Source: Cryptosporidium bovis (Eukaryota; Apicomplexa; Conoidasida; Eucoccidiorida; Cryptosporidiidae). From it: 64,000 bases of DNA. The position numbers and the translations under genes were made by a program. The notes under the pieces were generated by a model. It worked only from the letters and a program-made list of their open reading frames with translations, did not search any database and was not told where the DNA came from. Location of the stretch: the NCBI GenBank assembly GCA_009768925.2, contig VHIT02000014.1, positions 1 to 64,000 on the forward strand. Direction: 5' to 3'. Positions 15,556-63,687 of the stretch are shown here, piece after piece; within the stretch, counting starts at the first letter, position 1, and every line of letters begins with the position of its first letter.

Positions 15556-18500
15556 CTGCGAGTGAAGCCAGAATCAATATTTTGGTATATCCGGTAAAAA
15601 TAGCAGAAGAATCTGATGTTATTAGTCTTTGCTTTATACAAGTGCCAGGTATATTTGGTGTAACTGAATAGTTATATGACGTTATTACTCTATCAAAATA
15701 CTTGAATCTAAATAGCAGTGGATGGTTTTGGATTTTTTCATTTGATAGCAACGGAACTTCTGGAGGGCAAATCTTTACTGCATTTATGCTTGAGGGGACA
15801 GTATATAGGTTGAAATACTGATTATAAATTATTAATTTATTAAATTGGCTATAATTATCATAGTACTTTGGATCCGGGTCTAAATTTAATCTGGAAGTCA
15901 ATACTTGAATATCTTCTTTCTTAATAATAAAATTGTAATTTATTCTTTCACTAGGACTTGTTTCTCTTGATAAGAATATATTTTTATCCAACTGTTCGAC
16001 GTTACTTTTTTCAATAATTAATGTAAACAAATTCATCACATATTTTTCTTTAGAAGCTAATGTATTCTTTATTATCTTAATTATAATATTAATATCAGCT
16101 TTATCCGGTTTATATTCGTTGTTTGAATTACTATTATCTATTCTGGTGTATCTCACTTTCCTGCAATTTAGTTGTTTAAAATATCCGTTTCCTATTACGA
16201 GAAATAAAAGGCAGTCTGAATTCCCAATATTCTTGTCCCTAACCTCCATTCTACTCAAGTTTATCTCCTTACCATTCAACGAGTAATCGTCGATAATGTA
16301 TATATATCTAAAGTTCTCTTTATATGTTAACTTTGTGATTAAATAATCCGGTGAATTTGTTTCCAGTTTTATAACCTGATTCTTTAGAAGCGGAAACGGA
16401 TGATAAGAACTATGATTTTGCTGAACAGAGACCAATTGAAAAAAGTGGTTTCTTTTACTGTAATCTAATAATTTATTTACCCTTGGTTCCAAATAAGGAC
16501 CAATATAGTTCTCATTTACACTCAAAAACAATAACGAAGTAAAGTATGGATTGTCTATGGTAGATTCTGACGTTGAAATTGTGAATTCAACGTAAGCATT
16601 ATTTTCTATTGATTTTACTATACTTGGTTTTGTTATTTGAACTGCCAAACCCCACCATCCTTCCATAAATCCATTTTGTGATTCCAGTAAAATTGTTAAA
16701 ACTCTTTTTTTTTTAATATATTTCAATATGTTCAATCTTCTATCGCTTATTTTCGGTGGATATACTCCAACATTTAGTTCTTGACTCAATTCTTCTATGA
16801 ATGTATCTGGTATTTTCAAATTTATTGCCATAAACTTATTATTCTGTTGTTTTAGAATATAAAAATATATTACCATTGAATAATTATCATTAGAGTCTAC
16901 AAACACAAAAGGCCCACCCACTTCACTTACACTCGTTTCTTTGCTATCATAAACCTCACCTTTTACTATTTTTTTTGTAATTAATCTCGAAACACTGTCT
17001 GCTTTATCATGTATTGAAGTCGAGTACAATTCAACCTCCCATTCCTCTTGCACCCTTTCTGAACTAAAACCATTTTCAGAAATTACTCTTGAATTTAAAT
17101 TGTTCCCACTAACTAGTAATATACACTCAAATTGATAATTTGGATTTATATCAAATAACATTATTGAATTAGTTTTTTCATCATATTCCATCTTTACATT
17201 TACCTGGTGTGGTGACTTATCATAAATAAGTGGCCTCAATAATACATATGAATACGCTATTTCATTGTCAAATCCCTCTTTAATAAAGTAAACGTTTTTC
17301 AACAATGGCCTGACCTTTAAATTATACTTTTTCTTTATTCTACCATCCGTTTTTCCTATTCTAACCAGTATTGGATACAATTCTGACTCTGTTATTCTAT
17401 ATCTTATTTTGATATTTATATCCTTTATTTTTGGGAAACTGTAACTCCCTATCGAAATAGGAGAGTAATTGGCATCATAGTTTGTATTTTCCCCATTATT
17501 TTGATCCCCCACAATAGTTAAACCCCTATTCTCAAACAAATACCTTATCCACTCACCTATACACTCATTTTTTGCAGTTATTTCATCTATAACAGTCGCA
17601 TTTAGGTTCAGAAATTCAGGTTTAGATGATGGAACGGAGCCAACCAAGATTTCTATTTTAATTTTTTTTCCAGAATCTAGTTCTTTTGGAACTTCTAGGT
17701 TCTTTATTTCAATTCTCATGGGAAAAATATTATCTACTTTTCCATTTGTGCTTTCTGAAAGACCTAGTATTAGTATTAGTTGCGGACTTTTACTTTGAAT
17801 GTAACATTCGTAGTTATGATTCATTATTTCGCAGAAACTATGTTCAGGTGTATTTGTATCTATTTTAAAGCATTCATTTCTATTCTCACACTCTGGAAAG
17901 GTTAACCTTACTCTTATTGGTTCGGGCCCCACTAAAAACTTGTTTGGGAGTTCCGTTTTTACCGTCTGCTCCAATGTGAAACCCAATTTAGACATTTGGC
18001 TACCTTTATAAAATGACTCAAACGTTGCATTCTTGATGTTCAAAACATTCATTAGTGGTCCCAATGTGTTTGTAACAGACTCCTGATTTATCGTTGTTAA
18101 ACAGAAAGGTATTGTTGGCATGTTGTTCTTTGTACTTGTAATGCTCAAGTTCCAATTACCAGTTAATTCATTTATTTCAGGATTTTGAAGATCAAACCTC
18201 AGTATATAACTTCCATTATTCAGATTTCCCATCAATTTTAAAGCTTCATTGCCTTTTGCCACATAATCAGGCAAATCCAAACACTCACTCGTATTTTGTG
18301 ACACGACCTCCCAACTTTGAAATCCCAAAGATGTCAATATATCAAAGAATTCGATTTCAGTTTCTTTACTTAATTCACATGTCGGTGTTTTTACGTCATT
18401 TTCTTTCGAATATTCGCTTAATCTATAACTTAAACCTTTTTCATTGGAATTAACAATTCCTTTACTTACTTTGTAATCAATATATTGATTTCTATTTTCA

Positions 18501-18796
18501 CATTTTGCGTCCGTATCTTGAAATTTTCCTGCTTTTGTTCCAGGTAACAATTTTAAAGAATTTATCTTAAATCCATTAGGAACAGAAACCGTAATCATTG
18601 GACTGTAAAATGTGCATGGAATCTCAAATTCAAAATCAACATAGTGACTTTTTGATCCCAGTATATGAGTATTTAAATCTGAGGCAACTGCATGATATAT
18701 GCATGCATTACATGCAACTTTTGCTGCATACACATAATTATTGGTCTGAATATTTAAAAATGTTAAAAATAAAACTAACAATTCTATATTTCTCAT
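15533..18796 (-). CDS. Large secreted protein with possible GPI-anchor signal
   Basis: The first in-frame ATG is 18796 (a TTG precedes it), giving 1087 residues. [17 protein letters not shown] forms a clear signal peptide. The mature part is beta-rich with many Asn-X-Ser/Thr sites, scattered Cys pairs in the first 400 residues and long Asn/Lys-rich stretches; I recognise no domain. The last 27 residues contain small residues (SDSSA) followed by a spacer and a hydrophobic end [15 protein letters not shown], a layout typical of a GPI-attachment signal or tail anchor. This suggests a surface or wall-associated protein of the parasite. Its stop lies 23 bases inside the Sec23 coding end on the opposite strand, and the hydrophobic tail argues that the overlapping end is genuine. 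Function is unknown. Confidence 0.8.
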
Positions 18797-19272: not shown

Positions 19273-22200
19273 TTACAATTTTGAAAGTATACCCTCGGAT
19301 ATGTTAGTAATACGTTTCTCGTTTTGTTTATCGTGCTTCTTAATTATTGGAACCGAAGCATTCATAAAGTCTTTGATCAAGGAGGTGTAATTTGAGTCAA
19401 TTTCTTGATTAACTGAGTTATTTATCCAACTCTGTGCTACACCAATAATACATTTCCTAATATGCAAAGTAAATGAGTTATTATCAAGTGACAATGACTC
19501 AAAATTGTTGATTGGAGATTCCAAGTCGGCAATTCTATTTATAATTAAGCTATATGGACTCGAAGATAATGATGACGTTGAGCAAGAATCCAAAAGTGAC
19601 ATGTATATATCAAAAATCAGGTCGTGCGGGATTGAAAAGTATTTGTTCCATAGTTTCAGTGAAACTGAAGTGGGAATAAAACAGTCTATATCCAAGTTTT
19701 TTGTGTTTTTTATAAGGTAAAAGTTCCCAAATTCCAATACCGCAGAAATTGAATAAAGTTGTTGAAATAGGTCGTACTTTTTAATGATTTCTTGGTCTGA
19801 AAGCCCAACACATTGGAATATATTTGGTACAAATGACAAGGCGCCTAACAATGAAGATCCCGAAATATTTAATAATGGTGTTTGAACAAACTCAAATAGC
19901 TTTTGAATTGACTCGTGATAATTGAGATACCCATTAAACCCAAAGAAATAGCTCAGAAGTGGAAATATCGGAGTGTTTGTGTCGTCGTTGAGATTAACAC
20001 GATTTATTGTGTGGCCAATTGGTGGAAACAATGTTTGAAGAAGCAAATCTGAAATTAGACTGCATATTTCCTCCAACTCAGCATCATCCCCTGACTTCCT
20101 TTTATTTGCATTAAATAGTACCGAAATAATTGAAAAGGGTTGTAAATCAGGTACAGTGTTTATAATAGAGATGATTTCAGAAAAAGAGCAAATTCTAGAT
20201 GAAAGAGTTTTGACTGTTTTTAATAATTGACCGTTTTCATTTAATGCTAAATACTTTTCCAAGTAACTCGATAGTGGAATCTGCAAATAGTTTGAAGAAG
20301 AAATTAGTCCATCTGCATTTGAAATTGCATTTTCTATAGAAAAGTCCATTTGATATTTATCTTTTCCGGTAATCTTCTCGTCAAACAAATGTGGAAAGTA
20401 ATTTGAAACATTAATCTCAACTTGAGTAACTGAACGACCACCTAAAAAGTAAACCTTTCTCAGCATTTTGAGAGAATCAATGCGTGTTCTGACATTTCTG
20501 CACTCTTCTCCGCAGCAAATGTCTGCATCTAATGCTATAAATGAAAGTACACTTGCAGACTTTATGCTACCAAAAGACTTGTCATCACCTGTCAAATATA
20601 TACAGGAGAGAACATAGTAGAATGGAGAATAATTTCCAGAAGTAATCAAATCATTCAACACCGAAATAAATTGATCTTTTGAGTAAATACACCTTTCTCT
20701 GATATTGCTATATTGAAGGATACTGTTTAACTCATCAGATATAAGAGTTAAAAATGGTTTATTATAATCACGAGAATTACCATTTTCAAATTTTAGTGAA
20801 ACTTGAAAGTCCTTCAAAAGTTGTTGGCATATACAATGAAAAGAATTACTTCCATTTGATAAGTAGTATTCTTTAATAATAAGAGCCAATATATCTCTCA
20901 AAAGATATTTTAGGCACATATTTATTAATTTAGTATTGGAACTGTAGGAAAGTAAGGTCTTAATTGGCTGAATAAATAAACTCAAGCATTTATTCCTAAT
21001 AATTTTTTTTTTATCCCTTTCATGAGACAACAAATCATAAAAAGAGTCTGAAAGTGACTTAGTCCATGCCTCAATGATACCTTCGATGTGGGTATTAAAT
21101 GAGTTCAAGTCAACATTTATGTTATTTGATTTATTTGTTTCAAAATACCCTATTTTCTGTCTGGACTCTATTTGTTCCGTCAAAAATAACTCAAAGTACG
21201 ATATTGTTTGAAGTAACAAAAGAGTCGAGTCGGCGATTCTGTTCCAAGGTTTGAGAGTAAGTGAGGAGAATATCTCCTTAAGAAAGTCACTTTGAGTTTG
21301 GTCAAGCAGAAAAGACTCCCAATATTTATACGGTGGACTTGTAAAACTTCCAATTAGTTTATTTCTAGACGTTATTTTCTTTAAAATTGAATTAATGTCT
21401 GGATCTTCCGACAAGTCCTGAAACAAAGCAAGTCTCTTCATAATTCGGTTAGCCTTGTCACTTAAAATCCAACCAATTTTAGAGTGAACACACTTTAGTT
21501 GGTTTAGTAAATTGGAATCATAGTTTCTTGAATGAGAAGTTGAGCCAATTACGGCCATTGAAAAGGATTCAACTAAGAACCTAATTCGGCAAATTCCTTT
21601 GTTTGAAACTAATAAAAATATTAATGGCATTTCAGTAAGTATATTAGTGTTTTCATATCTTCCCAAATACATAAGAGTTATTTTTCTGATATTTTCAGGA
21701 GAAGAAATGAAAATCATCAGGAATTGAATTAACTGAGATAATAAATTCACAATAAAAGCTATAGATTTTATTATAAAAGTTGTAGATCTCTTTAGTTGTA
21801 TATTACAATCCGTTCCTAATTCCTCAATAATAATTTCGTGAATAGATCTTTCCTGATTAAGTTTGTTGTTTGGTAAAGATGTAAAATTAAATAATTCATT
21901 TCCTATAATGTTTCTGGATCTGGAAAGGATTTTCGATACTTTTTGCAATCTTAGGAAGCACAATTCAAGGATATGTGGTGTCAATATAAAATTTAAATCT
22001 TGGCCAGACCTGTAGAAAAGAGGGAGCTCCAAAATGCACCTAAGATCAAAAGCAATTGCCCCAGACAGTGCCTCAATCCAAGGGGATGTTAAAGAAAGAT
22101 AATTGGAGGTTAAAAATGAATCCTCTGGATGAACAAGCCTCCTGAAGTTCGTATTTGAGTTGTCTACATTGCTATTCATCTGTGAATTTCGCATAATTTG

Positions 22201-24656
22201 CATAAAAAGTCCACTTGCACCAATAATGTGTTGAACACCATTCCACCTTAAAGTTAATAAAAAGTAACGAGTTTCTCCTACTAGAATAATGTGACGATCA
22301 TGTATCCAACCGAGTAAGTCATAGTTATTTTTTTTTCCAAATTGGTTACCACCGTACTCCAGATTTACATCTGGATAAATCAAACTCTTAGAATTATTCA
22401 ATATTGGAAATTCCTCTAAGGTACCAATACTGTTATCAGAATTTATTTTAACTTCATAAATCGATTTTATCTGTTCATCTAATTCAAAAAATATTGGTTC
22501 ACCACCATTATTCTTTAAATTACTGGAAAAAGATGTATTATTATTATATCTAAGACTTGAGGACATTGGACTAGAAAAATTCCGGCCAAATAAAGAGTTA
22601 TCAATAAATTTATTCGAATCCAAATTTATATCTGCTGGAAGTGAATTAAAAAGTCTTAGCTCCACTTTGCAGATATTCCTGGAAGGAGTCTTTGAAAAAT
22701 CGGTATTTGCATTAACATTTTTAACCGTTTTGCAAGTTGTACTTCTGGTAATTATAGTTAGACCGTTCCTACAAAATGAATTTGTCATTCTGCTCTCTTC
22801 CCCAATAGACACTGAATGAGGGATAAAATTGGTTAACCAAAACCCAAAAACAGTTACATCACAATTATTACTGAAAGTACCAGGCTTAAGTTCAAAAATG
22901 TTATTTATTTCTGAAATGTGTAACTTCTTAAGGGGAGATCTCATGCTATGATTCTCCACTCCTGAACAATTGCTTGAAATTGAGCTCAAAGGTGGAATAT
23001 ATTCACTGTTTCTTTTAGAACACTGAAATTGTAAAATAGAACCATTCTCCATGAATAAAGAAATTGTTAGGTTGTATTCAAATGTGAATGAAAGACATAT
23101 ATCCTCTACTACAAAATTTCTGAAGTCTTCGTTCTTTCCTTCATTATTTAAAAATTTCCCAGATAATTGGGAAAGAATTTTATTTAATTCGGTTCTTTTG
23201 AAAGTATAAATTATTTTTATTGAACTTGGTGAGGAGAACCTTCCTTGGTAGTTTTTTTGGCAAGTTTGAGACATACAACTATCTATTTCATCTGTTAAAT
23301 CATAATTATTATTAACATTGTAGTTATTTTCATCTGTACAAACATAGTCGTCCCAATCTGATGGTAGCAGGTGTGGCTTTAAATTAACGTTAGAAACCCA
23401 ACTTTCAATTGAGTTTACAATCCTTCCCCAAGGAGCTATCAAAGGCAAGATTGTACTTGAATCTGAATCATTCAAATATTTAGCAATATGAATATTCTGA
23501 GAAGAGTCTAAAATTGCCATGTATCCACAAGGAGCAACAGAAACCTTACTGATGAATGTTCTCTGGAAAATCCTCAAAAACGTGTATTTAAATAAAAAAC
23601 TATTTGATAGAGTGTAGTTCACTTTATGAGAATGAATATAACAATATGGTGTGATCCAACCTTCTTTTGAATGGTAAACGAATTCATAAATATTTGAACT
23701 CTCCTCTTCAAAGAAGAAAAATCTGCCATCCAAAGTGCCTTGTAACGAATGCAATTTTGAAGCGTACATATTTGGAAGAGAACACTGAAACATATTTATC
23801 TCTTTACCATTTATCTTCATTATGGACACATTAATTAGTCCTGCACCCTTAACCACAGAGCCTTCACTATTCAAAACACTATTGTAATCCACACCATACT
23901 CATTAATTTCCTCACCATCTTGAGGCAAATTCCATTTTTTTAACCTTCTCAAGTTATACGAATTACATTTATCAAGTTTCAAAGCTAATAAGTTGCCGGA
24001 TTTCTCGGTAATTACACACAGAATATACTCAACATCTTTTGAGAATATATTTGCTCGTGGAAACGACCCGGTAACCATTTTTACTGGAAATGGAAGTGAT
24101 AACGTCAATATGGTATTATCAATTAAACCATTGTTCACCCTTTTACAATAAGAATCATTCGAAGTTTCAGAAATGTAACCAGAAGTTGATTCAGCACCAT
24201 TTTCAAATAAATCACCTATTGAAAATATATAAAGAATGTTTTCTAGTCCCACATATCCATAATTTATATGAGGTAAAAACCCATATGTAAGTGATGGTGG
24301 TCTCCCAACCAATAGTTGAATTCTCTTTATATGCTGAATAATAGAACTATGTAGTGGAAATGGGCCTTTCCATTCTAAACCTATATATCCTATACCCTCC
24401 CCATTGTGCACGGAGTCACCATATTCTTGCAATATGCTTGAAAGTGTGTTTGGGGTGTTTCTGGGCTCTTTGCTTTGATCCGAAAAATTTAATTTTATTA
24501 CCGGATTATTTCCACCGCATATCTCATTTAACTGGTTCACAATGGCCTGAAAATTTAAAAAACGGGAAATAATTTTCAATTACATACTTTATCAAATTGT
24601 TCACTTACCTCTGCTCCCCTCCGAAACTGTGATATATTTATGTTTTCCTCCAACAT
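19273..24656 (-). CDS. NUP155: Nup155/Nup170-like scaffold nucleoporin, two exons
   Basis: The long frame starts at a TTG (24579) inside an intron. The supported model has exon 1 24656-24609 (16 codons, MLEENINISQFRRGAE), a 62-base intron 24608-24547 with GTAAGT donor and TTTTCAG acceptor, and exon 2 24546-19273; phase 0, 1773 residues in total. Nup155/Nup170 is a scaffold subunit of the nuclear pore inner ring, with an N-terminal beta-propeller and a C-terminal alpha-solenoid. Signature similarity is clearest around LHSLQGTLDGRFFFFEE...NIYEFVYHSKEGW (roughly residues 290-325), matching the family's conserved GRIFLAG...YEVxYQxxxGWF block, followed by SVAPCGYMAILDSSQNIHIA. It is longer than human Nup155 (about 1391), through Asn/Ser-rich insertions in the propeller region. 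The helical second half is weakly conserved. Confidence 0.8.
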
Positions 24657-26816: not shown

Positions 26817-28535
26817 ATGTATATGAAGTTGTTTGATATAATTCTAATACTAATTTATTTGTGGGGGACTAATTGTTCATTTCTTGAAGGTGGGATTGAA
26901 AATAGGAGCATAAATAATGACTCAAATATTCTCAATGTAAATAAAAATTTAGGTGGAAATAACACAGGTAAAAATTCAAATCCAAATGTGAACAGTCTAG
27001 AAACCCTTTTAATGACAGCAAAAATAATATCAACCGCAGGAAATATACAAAAAACATTACAAAATGATGGAAGCGAGAATGTGCATGGAACTAGTCGTAC
27101 GGACACAACAGAATATGTCAGTTTCAAAGCCTCAAACAATACAAGAGATAGAAATAATATCGGTGTAACTCAATGTAATGTAGATAAGGCAGGTCTTTGC
27201 TGTGTAATGCCAAATTATTGTTCAAAAGAAGCAATATGTAAATCGGAAATAGTTGGACAGCAAACATATATTGATTACCTAAATGCCTTTCCAAGATGTC
27301 AGTGCCTTCCAGGATACACCGGGGATGGTAGAACGAAAGGAACTGGTTGTCAAAACATAAACGAGTGTCTCACAGGAGAAGCAAAATGTGAACAACTTTG
27401 CACAGATTATTCACCAGGATATGCATGTAGCTGTAACACTGGATTTAGATTAAACCTGAGAGATATGAAAAGTTGTATAGATATCGATGAATGTTCTGAA
27501 GGAACTCACAACTGTAGTCACAAGTGTGTGAATACACGCGGAAGTTTTGTTTGTGAATGTCCAAAAGGATATGTTTTAGATAAAGGTAATCAAGATTGTA
27601 TAGATATTGATGAGTGCAAAGACAATAGAGGTTTAGGACCCTGTGAATATGGGTGTAGAAACCTCCCAGGTAGTTTCGAGTGTATCTGCCCAAAAGGATA
27701 TAGACTAAATAAAAGTAGCCAAAAGTGCGTTGATATTGATGAGTGTAGAGAAAATAGTGGAATATGTACTGGTTTTGGTGAAGTATGTATAAATACAATT
27801 GGGGGATACAGTTGTAAATGTGGCCCAGGGTTTCGTTATAGTAAAAAAGAAGATGTTTGCATTGATATAGATGAATGTTTGGAGAAAACAGATAATTGTA
27901 CTGCAGATACTGTATGTGAGAATAGAATAGGTGGATTTACATGTAACTGCCTGAATTCGGGACTTAAATTTAACCCCGTAAGCAGAATATGTGAGGATAT
28001 AGATGAGTGTTCAAATGGGGAGTCAAAATGTGATCAAAAATGTGTAAACACATTCGGTGGATATAAATGCGAGTGTTATAAAGGTTTCAGACTAAATATT
28101 AGTGGGGTAAAGAGTAAAAACGAGAATGATACTTACAATAGTGGAGTTTGCGTTGATATTGACGAATGTTCTGAGATGCCACACTTAACTGGATGTTCCC
28201 ATGGATGCATAAATACTCGTGGTGGGTTTCAATGTACGTGTCCAAGAGGACTTCAGTTGAATCATGACGGAAAAACCTGTGACGACGTAAACGAATGTAG
28301 GATGGCGGAAAATCCCTGTAAAGATAACAAACAATTTCCTTGCTGCAAGAACACCATTGGTGGGTTTACATGCGTTGAGCAAATAAGAACGGGTGAACTT
28401 TTTAGGAGGTTCGAATGCCCAACTGAAAATAACAATACAGGCCCAGTGAATGCAGATAATAATAACAATATCAGTGGTATTTCACATAAATGGCAAATCA
28501 AATATAATCAATTACATACAAAACTTTCACAATAA
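26817..28535 (+). CDS. Secreted multi-EGF-domain protein (calcium-binding EGF type)
   Basis: 572 residues, ATG 26817. The N-terminus MYMKLFDIILILIYLWGTNCS is a signal peptide. A low-complexity Asn/Ser linker (about 25-120) leads into a first Cys-rich EGF-like unit (CCVMPNYC...CQCLPGYTGDG) and then eight units each opened by NINEC, DIDEC or DVNEC, the calcium-binding EGF signature, with the consensus Asn/Cys/Gly spacing (for example NTRGSFVCECPKGY, NTIGGYSCKCGPGF). There is no transmembrane helix or GPI signal at the C-terminus, so the protein is probably secreted and soluble. Tandem cbEGF rods in animals are extracellular adhesion and matrix modules; in apicomplexans EGF modules occur in surface and micronemal or oocyst-wall-related proteins. 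Here the role is unknown. An upstream TGCATGCATGCA element suggests stage-specific AP2 control. Confidence 0.92.
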   Translation: MYMKLFDIILILIYLWGTNCSFLEGGIENRSINNDSNILNVNKNLGGNNTGKNSNPNVNSLETLLMTAKIISTAGNIQKTLQNDGSENVHGTSRTDTTEYVSFKASNNTRDRNNIGVTQCNVDKAGLCCVMPNYCSKEAICKSEIVGQQTYIDYLNAFPRCQCLPGYTGDGRTKGTGCQNINECLTGEAKCEQLCTDYSPGYACSCNTGFRLNLRDMKSCIDIDECSEGTHNCSHKCVNTRGSFVCECPKGYVLDKGNQDCIDIDECKDNRGLGPCEYGCRNLPGSFECICPKGYRLNKSSQKCVDIDECRENSGICTGFGEVCINTIGGYSCKCGPGFRYSKKEDVCIDIDECLEKTDNCTADTVCENRIGGFTCNCLNSGLKFNPVSRICEDIDECSNGESKCDQKCVNTFGGYKCECYKGFRLNISGVKSKNENDTYNSGVCVDIDECSEMPHLTGCSHGCINTRGGFQCTCPRGLQLNHDGKTCDDVNECRMAENPCKDNKQFPCCKNTIGGFTCVEQIRTGELFRRFECPTENNNTGPVNADNNNNISGISHKWQIKYNQLHTKLSQ

Positions 28536-47533: not shown

Positions 47534-50272
47534 ATGGTGACAGATTCTCATCACAAAGAAAGAGAGGGAGTTGAATCTCCAGTTTCGCTAGAGGAGGGAG
47601 AAAAGGAGACACATGCTCAAGGACACAAATTAGAATTGGATCCAGAGGTAGTTTCCGGATCGCAGAGTCAGGCAGATGGTGGTCAAGGAGGCGTTGTAAT
47701 TACACCAACAGGTGTTAACAAGAGTAGTTCTATAGATGACATGACAACATGCACAACGAGTAGTGATTTGTCTACTCCAGTGGAAGGTTGTATCACCACA
47801 AAGAGACCGATTGCAGAGATATCAGGCGGAAGCATAGATTCCTCTGAACCAATTATTAAAGCTCAAAGTGTAGAGGCAGAGGGGAATACCAAAGAGGAAT
47901 TTGCGGATGGAACATCGGGCATGGATTCTTCCTTTCTTCGTGGGTCTGAAAATAGCATTGTATTTAAGAGAATCGAGACTAAGGACGCAAATCAGGCAGT
48001 AAATACCCGTACAGAGACAACCTCTACAGAAGTCTTATCTAGTGTTGACACGTCAAAATCTACAACAGCATCTACGTCACCGGTTAATCAACATCAAAAC
48101 AATACAGAAGATGTCAATGGGATGCCGTGCCCCACGAACAAATCTGCTATTTCTTCCAAACAAATTCTTGACGAACTTGTCCAGTTGGCAGCCGCCTCTG
48201 CTGGAACAGGCGCTAACATGGGACTTCTTGGGTCACAGCAGCTTGCCTCTGTAGATAATGGAGTCCTCCAACAATCGCTGTTACTTTTAGGTGGTTATGG
48301 ACATCCTACTCTAACTCCCACCTGCACAGGAACTCCAATTAAAGCACAATCTCCCTCGTCTTCGTGCCAAGGAGTTCCCCCTTCTGGATCTAGACCAGGG
48401 TCCGCCACTGACGTTCATGTGTCCGCAATGCCTTCTGCGACAGCATCAGGAAGCTCAATATTCCCCCAGCTGCTATCAAATTCTATTTTTCAACATCAAA
48501 GTTTAGGGAGACCTCTATCTGGTGCATTCGGAATAGGATCTCATCCATTTGCCTGGCAAACAGCAAACTCTTCACCCACAGCGAGTCCTGGTTTCTGTTC
48601 CGCCATCCCACAGCCTAATGCACAGCAAAATGTAGCGAATATAGCAGCATTCCTTGCAGCAGCTAACTCACAGATTAATGGAAGGCCCATTGCAACTGTT
48701 CCTTTTCCTACCCCGGTTAACAGGGCAGTGGGTACTGCTGCACCCGGCCATTCGGTACTCATGCACATGCATTCTGCGACGCCGTCTGATGCGTCGTCTA
48801 CATGTGACGGAACTCAATTATCAACTGTAAGTACCGCAGCTCCCAGTGGTGCAACTACACCAATTCCTGGTACTAATGGGATCACACAAGACACAAATAA
48901 CGAAGCTCTTTTCAGGTTTGCGAGCGGCTTCGCTGCACCTGGAACTGGTGGCGCCAACAGTCTTCCTGCTTATTGGCATGCAAATCCAAACCTACTGGCA
49001 AGTGCTGCCGCAGCTTCCTCGTTACTAGGAGCTCCAAATGATCTTTCTTCCACAATGGCACTTCTAAATAGCAGTTCATTAGGCTTACAACAACTTCTCC
49101 AAACTGGCCAATTGGTTCCCCATGCCTCTGCAGCATCTACACTATCCGAGGATGGGTCTTTAACGAGGGGAACCAGAGATACTTTAAGTGGTACTTACAA
49201 TCAGCAGAATTGCCTCCCATTTCTAGCGGGCTTGCAACAGCAAAATTTGGACCTTTCTACATTGACAAGTGGTTCAGGACCTGGTACAGTTTCTCTTGGA
49301 ACGTTGGCAAACGTAGCAGCTTGTGTTGGTTTTTCAAAAAACGGTGGCATAGATACAGATAATGATAACAGATCAACGAAAAGCAGCGGGAATAATAACG
49401 GTAATAGTGGTGGAAATAGCAATGTTGCTATAGATACTGGTAGCAACAATAGTAATTGTGGCGTTTCGGGTGTGGGGAGAACATCTCATGGAGGTGGATC
49501 ACGTTCCCTCAATTCGAATTCTTCCGTTTCCGCTGCAGCGGCGGCTTTGGATCACTTAGACGTTGATTGGGATAGTGTTGGACTCAGGGAGGCTGAATTG
49601 GCTGCGATGGAAATATGTAAGACCGCCAGCAGTCTGTTCGACACCACTGACGGAACAACTCCGGTGCCGAGTTCCCCAACTGCCGTGGGTGAGGCTGTCC
49701 TCACAGCTGCTCAACTAACCATATCTGCAAGAGCTATGCTCAAATTTGTTAAGGGTTTAACCCCAACTCAGCTTGGGATAAATTGGCATGCTTGTACACA
49801 AAGATTTTGTGTTACATACACTACCAGAGACGAGCATAATCCGAAAAGTTGGACTTTGGGTGCTTATTCGAATGGGAAGCTTCATTATAAGTATTTTGGA
49901 CCGAGATCATGGACGATTATGGGGCTAAAGGAAGCCCTTAGAAAAGCCTTCAAGGCCAGGACTTCGCTCTTGCTTGGACAGGGGATAATTGAGGAACCGG
50001 AAGACACGGGATTGAGTAAGGAGGAGCTTACTTATCATGCAAGGCAGCTTTTACAGCAGCTGAGAGACTCGCTGGGTGTTAAGAAAGGCAACGTACACAA
50101 GGGACTTTACATTTCATGGCATCCGAAGACAAGGAGATTTGTAGTCGCCCTAAAGTCATGTGAGAGCGGGAAGACCATATACAAGTACTTCTCACCAAAA
50201 GAAAGGTCGATAAAGGGGATTAAGACGGCTCTTTTAGATGCACATCAGATGGTCGTAGCTGCTTGTCAATAG
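47534..50272 (+). CDS. ApiAP2-type transcription factor with two C-terminal AP2-like domains
   Basis: 912 residues, ATG 47534. About 700 residues are low-complexity Ser, Thr, Gly, Ala and Asn-rich sequence without domains, apart from a poly-Ala segment near 675-683. The C-terminus holds two related modules of about 75-80 residues, at 724-805 and 828-912. Each has a helix (ISARAMLKFVKGL; YHARQLLQQLRDSL) followed by beta-strands and a helix typical of AP2: INWHACTQRFCVTY...YKYFGPRSWTIMGLKEALRKAFK and LYISWHPKTRRFVVAL...YKYFSPKERSIKGIKTALLDAHQ. ApiAP2 proteins are the main sequence-specific regulators of stage conversion in apicomplexans. Tandem modules joined by a short linker suggest a bipartite DNA site. 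Codon use is more GC-rich than neighbours in the N-terminal part. Confidence 0.82.
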   Translation: MVTDSHHKEREGVESPVSLEEGEKETHAQGHKLELDPEVVSGSQSQADGGQGGVVITPTGVNKSSSIDDMTTCTTSSDLSTPVEGCITTKRPIAEISGGSIDSSEPIIKAQSVEAEGNTKEEFADGTSGMDSSFLRGSENSIVFKRIETKDANQAVNTRTETTSTEVLSSVDTSKSTTASTSPVNQHQNNTEDVNGMPCPTNKSAISSKQILDELVQLAAASAGTGANMGLLGSQQLASVDNGVLQQSLLLLGGYGHPTLTPTCTGTPIKAQSPSSSCQGVPPSGSRPGSATDVHVSAMPSATASGSSIFPQLLSNSIFQHQSLGRPLSGAFGIGSHPFAWQTANSSPTASPGFCSAIPQPNAQQNVANIAAFLAAANSQINGRPIATVPFPTPVNRAVGTAAPGHSVLMHMHSATPSDASSTCDGTQLSTVSTAAPSGATTPIPGTNGITQDTNNEALFRFASGFAAPGTGGANSLPAYWHANPNLLASAAAASSLLGAPNDLSSTMALLNSSSLGLQQLLQTGQLVPHASAASTLSEDGSLTRGTRDTLSGTYNQQNCLPFLAGLQQQNLDLSTLTSGSGPGTVSLGTLANVAACVGFSKNGGIDTDNDNRSTKSSGNNNGNSGGNSNVAIDTGSNNSNCGVSGVGRTSHGGGSRSLNSNSSVSAAAAALDHLDVDWDSVGLREAELAAMEICKTASSLFDTTDGTTPVPSSPTAVGEAVLTAAQLTISARAMLKFVKGLTPTQLGINWHACTQRFCVTYTTRDEHNPKSWTLGAYSNGKLHYKYFGPRSWTIMGLKEALRKAFKARTSLLLGQGIIEEPEDTGLSKEELTYHARQLLQQLRDSLGVKKGNVHKGLYISWHPKTRRFVVALKSCESGKTIYKYFSPKERSIKGIKTALLDAHQMVVAACQ

Positions 50273-54341: not shown

Positions 54342-56729
54342 CTAATTTGTAGGTGAAAGCTCAGCGGAACTATTGTTTGTGGTGCTTGCCTCTATATTTT
54401 TCTTGGCACGAACCCAGCTATCCAATCTCCGCTGTTTAAATCCCTTATTCTCCTCCTCAGAAGAGTATTCATTAACTCTATCATACATACACTTATCTGA
54501 AAATGCATCCTGGCATTTGGTTATGTCTCTTGAATTAGAATTAGTAGTTACCTTGTCATAATCTCGTATTTCAGTGAAAATCTCGATTGAATTTAAACTT
54601 GGACTTCCGTTGACTTCCTCATTTGACTGAGAAAGAGGGATGTGAATTATTTTCCTAGACGTATTATCTTTTGAGGAATCAGTATACTCATCATAGACAT
54701 TGTTCTTTTCACTTTTAATAGAATTAGTGTTGTCAAATGATTTTGGTGTCATTAAACTTTCCTGCGACTGACTTATATAGCCACATTGTCCTCTATGTGG
54801 AGCAGGATACCCAACACTGTCTTGAGAAGAACCTGAGAATGGAATACTCCTCCTAAAGGGCGTTTTTTCAACATGTTCACCTATTAGACCTGAACTACCC
54901 TTTAAGCCGTCAGAATTAGAAATAGGTTCTTTCTCAGATAAACTAAGGTTACCTAACGTTAAAAACCCCGTTTTATTTTCCTTCAGTGAATTCGAGGAGT
55001 CATTATTAGTTGAATTTGTAATTTCAGCATCATCGTTTGCAACCTTTTTGACTCCAACTTCCGCCCCGGTAATACTCCCTCTGGTGGGTTTTGGTATCGG
55101 AACTGAGAGAGAAGATGACAAAGAAAGTTGATTTAATGCCTCTGAATCACCTTCAAAAGAACCACTAAAAGACAGAGATTCACCCGATACCCACTGAGAT
55201 TTTAATTTTTCACCATTCTTATTGCATTTCATACCACAATCCATGGGTAGAGGTCCCTTTTGGGATAAATCAGAAAAGTCCGGCATAGCAGATTTTCTGA
55301 AGTTAACTTGAAAATCTTTATTATCAAAAACTTTTAAATACCCCGATTTTGTCCCAACCAAAAAATTTGAGCAGTATTCTTTCCCCACATCAAAAACTTT
55401 CCCCAATTGCTTTTTGAGACCTTTGAGCGGGAAAATGTGTGACAAACTTGAAATATTATATATTTTCTTCCATTCAATACATTGAAATTCGGGAAATTCG
55501 TCGGCATTCCCACTTTTATGTATAAAATAAGGTTCTAACTTCTTACTTAAGTCTGAAATATCGAAAACACTGATAATGTTTCCTGAGTTTGATGGAGTTG
55601 CAATCCAATTTCCAAAACAAGAAATTGATGGTTTTTGACTTGAGTCAGCAAGTTCGCATTTTTCCTCTGGGAATAATTTGTTCATGTCAATAACAAGAGG
55701 CTTCACTCCCTTTTCTAATGAAAGAATGTCAGATATGTTGTAAACATAAATAGTTCCATCCCTTGTTCTCACACCTAATTTGTTGTAACTGTCGTCTACA
55801 TCCATCCATATTATTCCCCTTAATTCGCTATTATCTGTTTTATCGTCCTCCATTTGGGGGGAAAATTTGTGAATATAATTATCCTCCGAATTAGTGTTTG
55901 ACAGCTTTCTAATATCCCAAATTTTGATGTATCCGTCAGAACTGCCACATGTTGAAATGTAGTTTAATTGACTTAAAAAATTTACTGCACTAATAGATAA
56001 ATTTTTTTTGCCTATAAGTCTCTCACGGGATTGACTTTTTTTTATTAAATTTGTTTTTTTATTTGGTTCGTGAATACCAAATAATTCTATTTTCGGGACT
56101 AAATTTATCTTCTCAATATTTTTAAATGTGTTGGTATCAATTATATTATTTTTTCTAAGCATGTCAATTGAACAGTCTTTACTTTGACCTGAATTAAATT
56201 TACCACTTGAGCAAAGAGAAGCTTTTTTGTTGAAATATCTGTTATCAAATATGAAAAAATTACCATCATTTCCAACAGTAGCCAGTAATGATGCATTTTC
56301 CGAAGAAAGAGAGAATTTTTTAACCCACTCTTTGTGAGCTCTTATTTTGCAACTCTCATTTTCCTGTTCTAAGTCAAACTTCACGATAAAACTATCTGTT
56401 GAAGATGTATATATATATCTTTCTATTGCGTCTGATTCAAAGTCTAATTTTTGAAATTTTACTTCAGTTATTGAATTGTTGTGTAATCTTCTAGAAAAAA
56501 GCCTTGTGTGCCTTTTTTCAGCGTCCTCAGCTAGAGAGTTTTCCATGTGAAATATTTTGTACAAAGTCAAGAAACCTCCAGTGTCACCAACAGATATTAA
56601 GTTTCCTTCAAGTAGATTTCGTGAATAATTAATTGTTAATGGAATTCCCAACTCGTGATATATTAGACTACTATTGTATTGATGTGCATGTCCGCCTTCT
56701 AAATGAAATTCCAATTCAAAAGCATCCAT
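54342..56729 (-). CDS. Cdt2/DTL-like WD40 protein with C-terminal PIP-like box
   Basis: 795 residues, ATG 56729. The first 480 residues form a WD40 propeller; readable blades include LISVGDTGGFLTLYKI, IRAHKEWVKKFSLS followed by LLATVGNDGNFFIFDNRYF, LNYISTCGSSDGYIKIWDIRKL and LGVRTRDGTIYVYNISD. The order (EEGFVRLY, HxxxVF, GDxxxxFWD, GAVDGIIKVWDLRK) is that of Cdt2. WDIR fits the WDxR motif by which Cdt2-type receptors bind DDB1 in CRL4 ubiquitin ligases. The second half is a Ser/Asn-rich tail. Near the end, QRRLDSWVRAKK (Q766 onward) is a PIP-box-like motif for PCNA, a feature that vertebrate Cdt2 also has at its C-terminus. A role in replication-coupled degradation is inferred. Confidence 0.65.
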   Translation of the reverse strand: MDAFELEFHLEGGHAHQYNSSLIYHELGIPLTINYSRNLLEGNLISVGDTGGFLTLYKIFHMENSLAEDAEKRHTRLFSRRLHNNSITEVKFQKLDFESDAIERYIYTSSTDSFIVKFDLEQENESCKIRAHKEWVKKFSLSSENASLLATVGNDGNFFIFDNRYFNKKASLCSSGKFNSGQSKDCSIDMLRKNNIIDTNTFKNIEKINLVPKIELFGIHEPNKKTNLIKKSQSRERLIGKKNLSISAVNFLSQLNYISTCGSSDGYIKIWDIRKLSNTNSEDNYIHKFSPQMEDDKTDNSELRGIIWMDVDDSYNKLGVRTRDGTIYVYNISDILSLEKGVKPLVIDMNKLFPEEKCELADSSQKPSISCFGNWIATPSNSGNIISVFDISDLSKKLEPYFIHKSGNADEFPEFQCIEWKKIYNISSLSHIFPLKGLKKQLGKVFDVGKEYCSNFLVGTKSGYLKVFDNKDFQVNFRKSAMPDFSDLSQKGPLPMDCGMKCNKNGEKLKSQWVSGESLSFSGSFEGDSEALNQLSLSSSLSVPIPKPTRGSITGAEVGVKKVANDDAEITNSTNNDSSNSLKENKTGFLTLGNLSLSEKEPISNSDGLKGSSGLIGEHVEKTPFRRSIPFSGSSQDSVGYPAPHRGQCGYISQSQESLMTPKSFDNTNSIKSEKNNVYDEYTDSSKDNTSRKIIHIPLSQSNEEVNGSPSLNSIEIFTEIRDYDKVTTNSNSRDITKCQDAFSDKCMYDRVNEYSSEEENKGFKQRRLDSWVRAKKNIEASTTNNSSAELSPTN

Positions 56730-56903: not shown

Positions 56904-59900
56904 CTATACTCTTTCTATAATCTCTTCCTCTAGTTCACTATGGCTATAAACATATTCTTCTATTTGAATTTTATCGGTATTTTTATGTTGCTCCTCTTTA
57001 ATACAATTCGAGTTTGAAATTATAGAACCCTTTTTATCGCTGTTACTATTTCTACTAAAGCTTGACAGTATAGAGCTTTTTTCGTTTAGAGGAACAAGTG
57101 TGCCTGATCTTAGCTGTGTCGAAGAAATACTACTTGGAATCCCGCTCTCTATAGTAACTAGCTTGTTTATGAAATCATTGACTTTAACAGAAAGTTGATA
57201 CTTGTTTTTTCTCTTTGAGTCTGATTTTTTTAAACTATTTACAGAGTGATACATGGAGGTGGGGTTTCTTCCTCCAGATAAGAAGATCATTGCATGCCTT
57301 ATTTGCCCGTTAGACCATCCCAATTTTAACTTTTTTACCATTGAGGTGAATGTGCTCAGATCTATTCCAGTTGATGAAGCTGTATTTACTCCAAAATTTG
57401 ATTCGAGATAGTTTAATATAATTGATACATCAAGTTCTCCCATAAAATGTTGTTGAATCGCGTGATAGCAAATAGAGAATTCTGATTCATTTAATATACC
57501 ATCATTATCAAAATCAAAAACAGTTAAAAGTTCTTTAGCGTGTTCAGATGAGTAATAGAGACCTTCAGAAATTAAAAAGTATTTAATTGTGTGCTCATCA
57601 ATACCTGATTTATTCACTATCGTCTATTAAGTTTAATATGGTTAGTTATTAATGTTAAAATAACTATTAATATTTAATAAAACTTACTTGTGTTTTTATG
57701 GGTGCATTGTTAATTAAAAAATTCATCGTGTTTCTGCATCTAACCTGAAGTTCCCAAGGTGCGGTTTTTGCAACAATACTATACTTTCTTCTTTGTAGTT
57801 CTTTGTCTTCTTCATTCCCTCTTGTGAACAGGTAAATAAAACTGTAAAATCTCAAAGATTCGGAAATTTGTGCAATTCTTTGAATATTTTGAGTCTTTTG
57901 TATTGATATTACTTGTTCAAGTACTAGTTTATCTGCCATTTGGCCTACGGAGGTACACAATAATATGGGATATAGTATAAAAGGAAGGCACATATTTTGT
58001 AGTATAAAAATACACCAAATGGATACGGTAACTAGTTGGAACTCCTTAAACCAAAGTTCTTTTTGAAGATAAGAGAGATGAATGACTATTGAAATGAGAA
58101 TGTGTTGGAGAAAATAAGAAGCTTGAAACCATCTCAACAATATATTCGGCCCATTCTTTTTAAAGAAAAATAAGTCATCATGAAGAGTTGGATTATTTGT
58201 TCCAAATAATTTATTATATATGTATCTATACAATCTTTTAAGGAACGAGGATGATTCTTTAATATCACAATCGCCTAAATAATTGGTTTCAAATGTGCCT
58301 TGTGCAATTAAATTACCAGGTTGAGTTGATAATTGAAAATAACCACCACTTCTTGACATTGATTCTTTTTTTTTAGATAATTTAGCGTTGCGTATTTTGT
58401 ACCTAGGCATTATTTTTTCATACTCTATTTCTTGTTGAGGTATTCCAATATCAAGACTGTATTTCATTTTAAGATACTCTAATACATCCTTTGGTTGGAG
58501 ATTTCTTTTTATTATCCATGATTCAAGCCATATAACCAATGAAAACCCAAATAATACAACAGAAATATAAAAACAAATCATAGGTTCGGAAAAATAATGT
58601 TTTGTATTGTTAAAAGCAACAATATTGTAATGATAATTATAAATACATAGCCAAGAGATTATATTAACAGTAAAAGCAAATACCAATGTCGTAATCGGAA
58701 TTCGAATTAGTGACACTGCCAAAATCAATAATTTTGCTCTTAAATATTCTGTAAAGTATACACCGGCTACTAATAAAACTGTTGGGTCTGCTAAAGAAAT
58801 TAACCATGAATTATTTTGACATTCTAACGATGAACAAGTGTCGCCGCTAACGTTTGAACTAAACGAGCCATAATTATCATAAGTTGCTATCTCGTCCATG
58901 AAATCATATCGTAAGGACACAAAATGAGCTTTCATATACGTCAGTAAAAATTGGTTGGGCCAATCCCGTATATTGTTAAAAAAAAGAGAAAATTTCTCTG
59001 AAATTTGTCCTCTCCATGTCAATGGAATATTACTTGCCTTTCTAATTTGCTTTTTCTTCCTTGATGAAACGCTATCTCTCTTTGACTTTGTATTACTGGT
59101 GTTATTTGGTTTGTTTCCCAACTCGATGCTATCATTAAATTGTGAAACCCTAATATCATCCTCAACAATGGAAATATCCCCTTCTTCTCTTTCAGAGCAC
59201 GAACTTAAACTACTATTAATATCCGTGCACTGTTCTATATCAACCTCGGATGAATAATTCATAACTTCATTCTTTTCAACATCAATTAGGCGATCAGTTT
59301 CAATTTGTCCCCTTTCACTTAAACTTCCGTTCTTACTTAAGGGTAACTTATAACTTGAAATACTTCCACAACCTTGTAGTACTGTAATGGGGATATTCTC
59401 TTGAATTGAACCTTTATTCTCACTCGCTGTTACATTAGAACCATTTTTTCCTAATTCACCCAACAATTTCTGAATGTCACTGTTGTTATTTCCGTTGCTA
59501 TAATAATCTCGGCAGTCTGATGTCTTTTTTTTCCTTATTTTTCCTAAACTAAACATATTTTTGAGAGTATATATTGACTTTATCAGTGATCCTACATCAG
59601 TACTATCTGCATATCTAATCCATTTCTCTAAAAACTTGACTGAAGCAGTAAATAATAACACGAAAACACAATACCAAGAAAATGTTAATATAACTATCGC
59701 CAATATATTATTAAATTCTTTTGTTAAATTTTCAGTCGTCCATACTTTTGAGTTATTTATTATAGCATCATCTATTTTAGTAGCAATGTTATTTATGATA
59801 GTCTTATTTGAATAATTTAACATTATTTTCTCACAGTATTCTCTTATAAGATCAATTAATCTTGAAGTAAGCAAGCAATAAGAGATAGCAAGAGACAAAA

Positions 59901-60324
59901 ATATACATGTTGCCTGACGAAATACTGTATCCATTACTGTTTGAAGAAAAAAATCATTTTTAAGCCTGATTCTTTCAACAACACAATCTCTTACTATAAA
60001 AGTTGAAAATATTGATATTATTATTAATATTCCAGCAAGTATGAAGTATATACTTCTTGACGAGTATCTATCATCTTTAACTATATGCGACTTATCGTAT
60101 TTTTTGTCTATTTCAGTATCATCAAAGTTTTCCACTGTATTCGAAGTTTCAGTTTTATTTTCTATAGTATAATCCTTCATATGTGTTGTTTTAACAATAT
60201 CTAGTGGTAAGCCTTCACCTCCATTCTCATATTTAAAAACTTCACTTGTTATCTCTGAGTTGGTGAAAGTATAATTAAATAATAGTATTAACACAAAAAA
60301 AAACGAAATATCAAATTTAAACAT
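56904..60324 (-). CDS. MLO-like polytopic membrane protein fused to an EF-hand domain, two exons
   Basis: Two neighbouring frames join: exon 1 60324-57688, a 64-base intron 57687-57624 (GTAAGT donor, TTAATAG acceptor, phase 0), exon 2 57623-56904; 1118 residues. The EF-hand frame has no ATG of its own at its start (GTG), while joining is seamless. A signal peptide (MFKFDISFFFVLILLF) precedes about eight hydrophobic segments and an acidic/Ser-rich loop (about 260-440). The part FLLTYMKAHFVSLRYDFM and the end DDLFFFKKNGPNILLRWFQ...NMCLPFILYPILLCTSVGQM resemble the MLO family blocks (YLTLRHGFI; DxFWFxRPxxxLxLIHF; CSYVTLPLYALVTQMG). Plant MLO proteins are calmodulin-regulated calcium channels. 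Exon 2 has a canonical EF-hand loop DFDNDGILNESE (916-927). MLO homology is my reading and needs a profile search. Confidence 0.6.
57624..57687 (-). other. Intron joining MLO-like and EF-hand exons
   Basis: Reads GTAAGTTTTATT...CTTAATAG on the minus strand. If retained, translation continues for six codons (VSFIKY) and stops at TAA, giving a product without the EF-hand domain. Confidence 0.7.
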
Positions 60325-61758: not shown

Positions 61759-63687
61759 TTAAAATCTGTTTTCAGGAACGTTGTCGAATCTTCCATCGTC
61801 AACACCAAATCCATAAAGAACGACATTGAAATCTTTCTTTGGAATCCATGGGACTTTCGGAAGAATTGTGTTATTTATAACAGCATCAGGAGATTTTTTG
61901 TTATTAGTGTCAGACAACGATTGATCGTCCTTGATATCCAAATCGTTATTTTGGTCTTTTGAATTTGCTTCAGAGGAATCGCTCGATTGCTTGGGTTGAA
62001 GTTTTTGATTATCAATTGCAACAGCTGTTGCCTGCAGTCTTTTTGCAACAGCAGACCCAATGTTTGGAGAGACAAGAGTGCTGGATGAATCACCACAAAC
62101 ACTTCTCGTTGATGGTCCCAACTGGACGATCATTAAAGTCATATTATCACATCCAATACCTTCGCTTTCGACTGGATTCGGAGCCAGACATTCGTCACAT
62201 ATTTCTTCGCAAATATCAGACAATTGAATGGAATTTAACGGTGGAATAGGAGAAGAGCCATCTAAATGTGACTCTGAGTATGGCTTCCCATTAGTAGTTG
62301 TGAAGTTTTCACCAGTGTTCACCTCCACTTCTTTACCACTACTATTACTTGTGTCTTCGGAGTTATTTATCTGTAACAACATCTTCCTTCTGACGATATC
62401 TACACATAACTGATTATCAACAACATCCCAAATACCATCACATGCAAGAATAATGAATTCGTCCTCACTAGTTAGAGGAATTATTCTAACATCTGGAAAT
62501 GCCGTTATTTTTTGTTCTCTTGGTGTAAGAGTCTCGTCACTCTTGTATTGTAAATCACCTAGGGTCCTAGACATATTTAGATTACCGTCCACGCGACCAT
62601 TCTCTACTGTACCATGCGCCTTTAAAATTCTTTCATTCTCTATTGGTAACTCAGGCTTGTGATCATGAGACAAAGCAATTGCTTGGCCTGAACGACTTAA
62701 AACAGCTCTTGAATCACCTGCATTAGCTACAATTAGGAACGGACTTTGATTTGAATTTCCCTGGACAATAACAGCAACAACAGCAGTCGTTCCACAATGG
62801 TCCGGACCACATGCTCCTGAGTCAGACAGGTCTTCCATGTAACTATCTTCCTCCAAACATTCATCTTCAGCTAAACTCTGGTCAGCAGATTCAAATGGAG
62901 ATTCATTGTTCATGCAATTTACATCGCTTTCAAAAGGAACAATTCCATTGGAATTTGTTTCTTCAGCTTCATGATAATCATGATTTTGAGTAACCTTTAC
63001 CGGATCAAGATTTTCTCCTGTTGTAACAGAAGTTGACTCCTCTACAGATTCCCTTTTTTCCTGTACTTCTTCAATTTTTTTTTCAGTATCTTCAAGCTCA
63101 GCATTTCCCGACTCCTCATCGCCATTGAAGGATACTATTTGAAGAAATTTATTTCCATTTTGCTCTACCATTCTTAATACCCTTTTTTGCCCATCTATTC
63201 CTCCTAATAACTCTTGGAGGAAAGTTTTCGGTTGATTGACTTCATTGGACGACTTTTTCTGGTCATATATGGCTCTTTGTTCCGGCCTAGAGGAAGGAGC
63301 AGCCATCTGCTCATCCAATTTAATATATGTCCTTTGAAGTGCCTCAGAAATAATCACAACTTTTGCTGGTAGCTTACTTTTCTCTTGGTCCAAAACCAAC
63401 TCATTTGAATTTAATTCAGAAGCAACCAAATCTAGTTCTTCCTCGAATATTGATTCTATGTGTTTTGATACCCACTCTGAAATCACCGAGCCACCATGGC
63501 CATCAAAAACACCAAAAAGAGACAGTTCAGAATGTTTACTGAGCTTCGGTAAAGCCAAATGGGCATCCTCCATAGATACTCTCCAACCTTGCATCCCACT
63601 AACTCCATATCTAACGCCGTAATTCTCGAAATCACCTCCTTGGTTCGAGTGTTTCTTAGTGGATGGTTTCGTCAAAAACATCCCCAT
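61759..63687 (-). CDS. PP2C-type phosphatase, PPM1G-like
   Basis: First in-frame ATG 63687 (TTG precedes it), 642 residues. PP2C enzymes are Mg/Mn-dependent Ser/Thr phosphatases; PPM1G acts in the nucleus on splicing and chromatin factors. MGMFLTKPSTKK resembles PPM1G's MGAYLSQPNT, with Gly2 allowing N-myristoylation. Catalytic motifs are GVSGMQGWRVSMEDAH, FGVFDGHGG, (after the insert) DHCGTTAVVAVI, IVANAGDSRAVLS, SHDHKP, LACDGIWDVV and GIGCDNMTLMI. A Glu/Ser-rich acidic insertion of about 200 residues separates DGHGG from the GTTAVV block, exactly where PPM1G has its acidic insertion. The C-terminal 130 residues are low complexity. Two GGCGCC cores lie about 220 bases upstream. Confidence 0.92.
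   Translation of the reverse strand: MGMFLTKPSTKKHSNQGGDFENYGVRYGVSGMQGWRVSMEDAHLALPKLSKHSELSLFGVFDGHGGSVISEWVSKHIESIFEEELDLVASELNSNELVLDQEKSKLPAKVVIISEALQRTYIKLDEQMAAPSSRPEQRAIYDQKKSSNEVNQPKTFLQELLGGIDGQKRVLRMVEQNGNKFLQIVSFNGDEESGNAELEDTEKKIEEVQEKRESVEESTSVTTGENLDPVKVTQNHDYHEAEETNSNGIVPFESDVNCMNNESPFESADQSLAEDECLEEDSYMEDLSDSGACGPDHCGTTAVVAVIVQGNSNQSPFLIVANAGDSRAVLSRSGQAIALSHDHKPELPIENERILKAHGTVENGRVDGNLNMSRTLGDLQYKSDETLTPREQKITAFPDVRIIPLTSEDEFIILACDGIWDVVDNQLCVDIVRRKMLLQINNSEDTSNSSGKEVEVNTGENFTTTNGKPYSESHLDGSSPIPPLNSIQLSDICEEICDECLAPNPVESEGIGCDNMTLMIVQLGPSTRSVCGDSSSTLVSPNIGSAVAKRLQATAVAIDNQKLQPKQSSDSSEANSKDQNNDLDIKDDQSLSDTNNKKSPDAVINNTILPKVPWIPKKDFNVVLYGFGVDDGRFDNVPENRF

Follow-up and report, generated by a model that had tools for sequence, protein, structure and literature searches.

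The closest described relatives of the gene considered here are the RON11 proteins of apicomplexan parasites. In Cryptosporidium parvum, Cgd3_2010 is described as CpRON11 in the accessible text of a July 2026 preprint (PMC13419397), which presents it as a homolog of TgRON11 and a seven-transmembrane rhoptry neck membrane protein and localises it to the rhoptry neck and afterwards to the feeder-organelle membrane. Published descriptions give Toxoplasma RON11 seven transmembrane domains and an EF-hand, the latter predicted for the gene in PMC4026381, and disruption of RON11 in T. gondii is stated to cause only a minor fitness defect (PMC11441699). Plasmodium RON11 (PF3D7_1463900) is described with a signal peptide, seven transmembrane domains, and C-terminal EF-hand(s), and the P. 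falciparum protein is given in the literature as required for invasion. Here, we analysed the first 64,000 nucleotides of Cryptosporidium bovis contig VHIT02000014.1 (assembly GCA_009768925.2), hereafter the window, and a minus-strand gene at positions 56904 to 60324, which we regard with high confidence as the RON11 ortholog of Cryptosporidium, encoding an integral rhoptry-neck membrane protein.

Inspection of open reading frames (ORFs) in the window identified two frames on the minus strand, 60324 to 57667 and 57623 to 56904. An earlier note on this DNA had joined them into one protein of 1118 residues by removing a 64-base GT-AG intron in phase 0, and the coordinates, the frames, and the intron were all confirmed. 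Exon 1 (57688 to 60324, minus strand) encodes, on the evidence of its translation and its relatives, the signal-peptide-like N terminus, seven transmembrane segments (TM), and long cytosolic loops of the RON11 ortholog. The intron (57624 to 57687, minus strand) reads GTAAGT ... AACTAAC ... TTAATAG and contains CTAAC as a branch-like site, and the same junction is found in relatives. Exon 2 (56904 to 57623, minus strand, stop codon included) encodes the EF-hand domain and a low-complexity tail, as seen in the ORF and in Pfam and structural matches. Two further claims of that note also held on the sequence: the upstream frame stops six codons inside the intron, and the EF-hand frame has no ATG at its start, its first methionine (exon 2 residue 61) lying only downstream of the EF-hand loop (residues 37 to 48). 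Each exon has one match in the genome of its own species (9.06 million bases, 43 contigs). The pattern GTAAGT-N28..52-CTAAC-N5..20-TAG occurs a single time in the window, exactly at the RON11 junction, and in shuffled windows it occurs 0.12 times on average (at least one occurrence in 12 of 100). Taken alone, this uniqueness gives splicing modest weight; the comparison of species at the junction is the stronger support.

Searching for homologs of the joined protein gave 10 sequences: the C. bovis protein itself (P0001), seven from named Cryptosporidium (C. ryanae, C. parvum, C. ubiquitum, C. canis, C. felis, C. sp. chipmunk genotype I, and C. andersoni), and two more. A profile search with the RON11 candidate returned the identical set. 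The nearest relative found was that of C. ryanae (81% identity over 87% of the searched region), while the C. parvum ortholog CPHLJ_3g2010 (P0003) was 59% identical over the searched region and uninterrupted across the same junction. In the alignment, half of the proteins (P0003, P0004, P0005, P0006, and P0010; 1084 to 1115 residues) extend across the junction and include the EF-hand domain. The other five (P0001, P0002, P0007, P0008, and P0009) have V-S after the same column and end within 2 to 8 residues, as expected of a frame that enters a GTAAGT-like donor. The intron is thus probably conserved. The deposited models of C. ryanae and chipmunk genotype I are among the early-ending ones. Judged from the alignment, the models P0002, P0007, P0008, and P0009, which belong to C. 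ryanae, chipmunk genotype I, and the two further sources, very probably miss exon 2 and its EF-hand domain through an overlooked intron. At the level of sequence, it is confirmed that one spliced gene is predicted to encode both the membrane part and the EF-hand part.

Membrane segments and signal peptides were called with a hydropathy measure in five proteins, the C. bovis protein included. In the latter, an N-terminal hydrophobic segment at residues 2 to 20 (60265 to 60321, minus strand, as for all segments) is likely a signal peptide and has an equivalent in all five proteins. It is followed by TM1 (residues 92 to 110; 59995 to 60051), TM2 (residues 139 to 157; 59854 to 59910), TM3 (residues 207 to 225; 59650 to 59706), TM4 (residues 532 to 550; 58675 to 58731), TM5 (residues 582 to 600; 58525 to 58581), TM6 (residues 735 to 753; 58066 to 58122), and TM7 (residues 771 to 789; 57958 to 58014), the last of which contains a block earlier called MLO-like and also lies in a weak hhalign local match. 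The earlier count of about eight hydrophobic segments plus a signal peptide needs slight correction: four of the five proteins have the N-terminal segment and seven others, and in the C. bovis protein residues 507 to 525 form an extra, weak eighth. The order of parts, with a signal-peptide-like start, seven TM, and a C-terminal EF-hand domain, is that of the RON11 plan.

The name RON11 is based on the homology statement of the preprint together with this shared architecture. CpRON11 is orthologous to the window protein, has the same architecture, and crosses the same junction; it belongs to another species of the genus, and the published localisation applies to C. parvum. The Plasmodium protein differs by an N-terminal PEXEL motif, as far as its description goes. 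Several points weigh against the assignment. That CPHLJ_3g2010 and Cgd3_2010 are one gene is an inference from the chromosome and gene number that both tags carry. In neither the homology nor the profile search did any relative from a different named genus appear at an expectation value (E) of up to 10, although both searches depend on shared five-residue words, so that distant relatives may escape; this contrasts with the conservation across Apicomplexa that is claimed for RON11. The apparent likeness to the Toxoplasma and Plasmodium proteins comes from published descriptions rather than from sequence comparison. In addition, exon 2 matched Pfam EF-hand_8 at an E of 1e-4, under the curated cut-off, and across the 10 proteins the Pfam EF-hand families gave weak matches (best 0.009, in at most 3 of the 10 members per family). 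The earlier idea of a built-in calcium sensor stands insofar as an EF-hand domain is joined to a membrane protein, but it is not new, as the RON11 architecture has been published; both the combination of membrane protein and EF-hand and the genus-level ortholog are already known from print.

Exon 2 contains a canonical 12-residue EF-hand loop, DFDNDGILNESE (exon 2 residues 37 to 48; 57480 to 57515, minus strand), recognised in the sequence and by Pfam EF-hand_8. In a sequence search of the PDB, the best match of exon 2 was Cdc31 (E of 0.015), followed by calmodulins, and structural matching of a weak model also put EF-hand proteins first; PDB sequence searches gave no match for exon 1 or for the Cryptosporidium core. 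One alternative accepts the RON11 identity and sees the EF-hand domain as a relic, kept in structure but no longer able to sense calcium. The domain has this one canonical loop only, the following unit being degenerate in the sequence and the alignment, its Pfam scores lie under the cut-offs as given above, and the RON11 literature, in the text available, gives calcium binding as a possibility rather than a measurement. However, the calcium-ligand positions D1, D3, D5, and E12 (D37, D39, D41, and E48) are invariant in all six exon 2 sequences compared, and we consider a relic possible but unlikely.

A second alternative concerns the family to which RON11 belongs. Plant MLO proteins (Pfam Mlo, PF03094) share with the window protein seven membrane segments, a long second cytosolic loop, and a calcium-linked cytosolic tail; the plant tail binds calmodulin, and in the window protein the EF-hand domain occupies that place. 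Calcium-permeable channel activity is described for Arabidopsis MLO1/5/9/15 in the available text of PMC9810639. RON11 would then be the apicomplexan branch of MLO and the window protein a divergent MLO calcium channel whose calmodulin-binding tail was swapped for a built-in EF-hand sensor, which we hold to be very improbable. The earlier note had pointed out MLO-like blocks in the membrane part and had named the Mlo profile as a check; in that search, whose filters remove most matches above about 0.1, Pfam Mlo was not reported at an E of up to 10 for exon 1 or for any of the 10 proteins. A PF03094 search gave no match in the C. bovis genome, but as it gave none in any of 14 control genomes either, this result carries no weight.

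The profile comparisons used MLOs of seed plants only, barley MLO included (23 or 114 of the 120 listed among 2958 matches), and algal or protist MLOs, which lie outside this set, might match better. With hhalign, the probability was 3.8% (P of 0.011) for the Cryptosporidium core against 23 MLOs, 2.2% for the full-length alignment against the same number, 0.7% against 114 MLOs, and at most 3.8% against a single MLO. The best local match does fall in TM6-TM7, collinear with that part of MLO. Of the column-shuffled decoys, made at two shuffle widths, only 1 of 100 and 4 of 100 reached the real score, but 16 and 14 of 100 also aligned in the TM6-TM7 region of both proteins. When the membrane part was compared block by block, the real score was reached by 68 (TM1-3), 25 (TM4), 138 (TM5), and 14 (TM6-7) of 150 decoys, and in a 4 x 4 block test the collinear pairing ranked 6 of 24.

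Seven segments were found by hydropathy in four of the five Cryptosporidium proteins, with a measure that finds 6, 6, 7, and 6 segments in four MLOs and thus undercounts there. The loop after TM1 has 28 residues in the window protein and 29 in barley MLO, and the loop after TM2 has 49 in both, although the latter agreement is not typical, since three other MLOs have 72 to 84 residues. MLO is defined with four conserved extracellular cysteines in the available text of PMC2844067, and in the four MLOs, three cysteines follow TM2 and a further one lies between TM5 and TM7. The five Cryptosporidium proteins all lack such loop cysteines: TM2 is followed by no more than one, and the stretch from TM6 to TM7 has none. 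A search of the PDB with the MLO profile found no MLO and one chance match (E of 1.4), and the full-length model of the window protein (mean predicted local distance difference test [pLDDT] score, 34.7) was too poor for a fold comparison. With the Pfam, hhalign, decoy, and block-pairing results all unconvincing and the loop cysteines missing, membership in the MLO family is not supported.

That RON11 might be a very distant MLO relative, a calcium-permeable seven-helix channel that sits in the rhoptry membrane and carries an EF-hand sensor of its own, is highly unlikely; what speaks for it is the seven-helix topology, two loop lengths in agreement with barley MLO, and a single weak similarity at TM6-TM7. 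If true, it would provide RON11 with a biochemical activity. The link would also be new, since the literature searched, mostly without subscription papers, contained no work combining RON11 and MLO; it also contained none on MLO proteins together with apicomplexa and a calcium channel and none on an MLO/EF-hand fusion in a protist. Among papers on MLO with Cryptosporidium, none was about this gene, judged by title, and neither alveolates nor Apicomplexa came up in a term search of the available text of two MLO phylogenies (PMC9229925 and PMC7291212).

That the two frames are adjacent separate genes, one for a membrane protein and one for an EF-hand protein, would fit the five protein models (that of C. 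bovis included) ending within the intron, but it has a practically negligible chance in view of the five annotated as a single protein, an exon 2 without an ATG ahead of the EF-hand loop, and intron signals that sit where splicing needs them.

Other Pfam matches were set aside. Those of DUF5513 and DUF7133 on exon 1 were put down to chance or regarded as unrelated, and over the 10 proteins FaeA (3 of 10 members; best E of 0.0012), Amphi-Trp, and others were not significant.

The RON11 gene lies between a PP2C phosphatase upstream (61762 to 63687, minus strand; E of 8.5e-63) and a WD40-repeat protein downstream (54345 to 56729, minus strand). Elsewhere in the window, a frame of 572 residues (26817 to 28532, plus strand) has seven calcium-binding EGF stretches (Pfam EGF_CA; E of 2.1e-59) and is probably a secreted or surface protein. 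Four other frames had no Pfam match at 1e-3. One of 912 residues (47534 to 50272, plus strand) lies where the GC content per 2-kb step of the window is highest (48001 to 50000; 0.474) and has two similar repeats at its C terminus, which we take to resemble the AP2 domains of apicomplexan ApiAP2 factors. Another, of 588 residues (1478 to 3244), contains a tandem array of the hexamer GTCATG (1725 to 2123; 66.5 copies). The remaining two, on the minus strand, have 1601 (19276 to 24078) and 1087 (15536 to 18796) residues.

Returning to RON11, the literature and the topology together suggest how the protein could work. The signal peptide would direct it into the secretory pathway, and the N terminus and the loops that follow TM2, TM4, and TM6 would face the rhoptry lumen. 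A protein that crosses the membrane seven times after losing its signal peptide would have its EF-hand tail on the side of the parasite cytosol, where the EF-hands could sense the rise in calcium during invasion and act on events at the rhoptry membrane. Such a putative calcium-reading tail could pass invasion signals to rhoptry assembly or to the timing of discharge. In C. parvum, the same membrane later turns into the apical compartment and the feeder organelle.

With the RON11 identity, an anonymous reading frame is linked to a conserved component of the machinery for invasion, and the misleading MLO label can be dropped. The early-ending gene models of several species lose the EF-hand domain and deserve re-checking. 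In P. falciparum, RON11 is described as needed for making the second rhoptry (PMC11441699), whereas Cryptosporidium has one rhoptry and yet retains the protein, suggesting that RON11 proteins may share a function in invasion or at the rhoptry membrane itself and not one in setting how many rhoptries are made.
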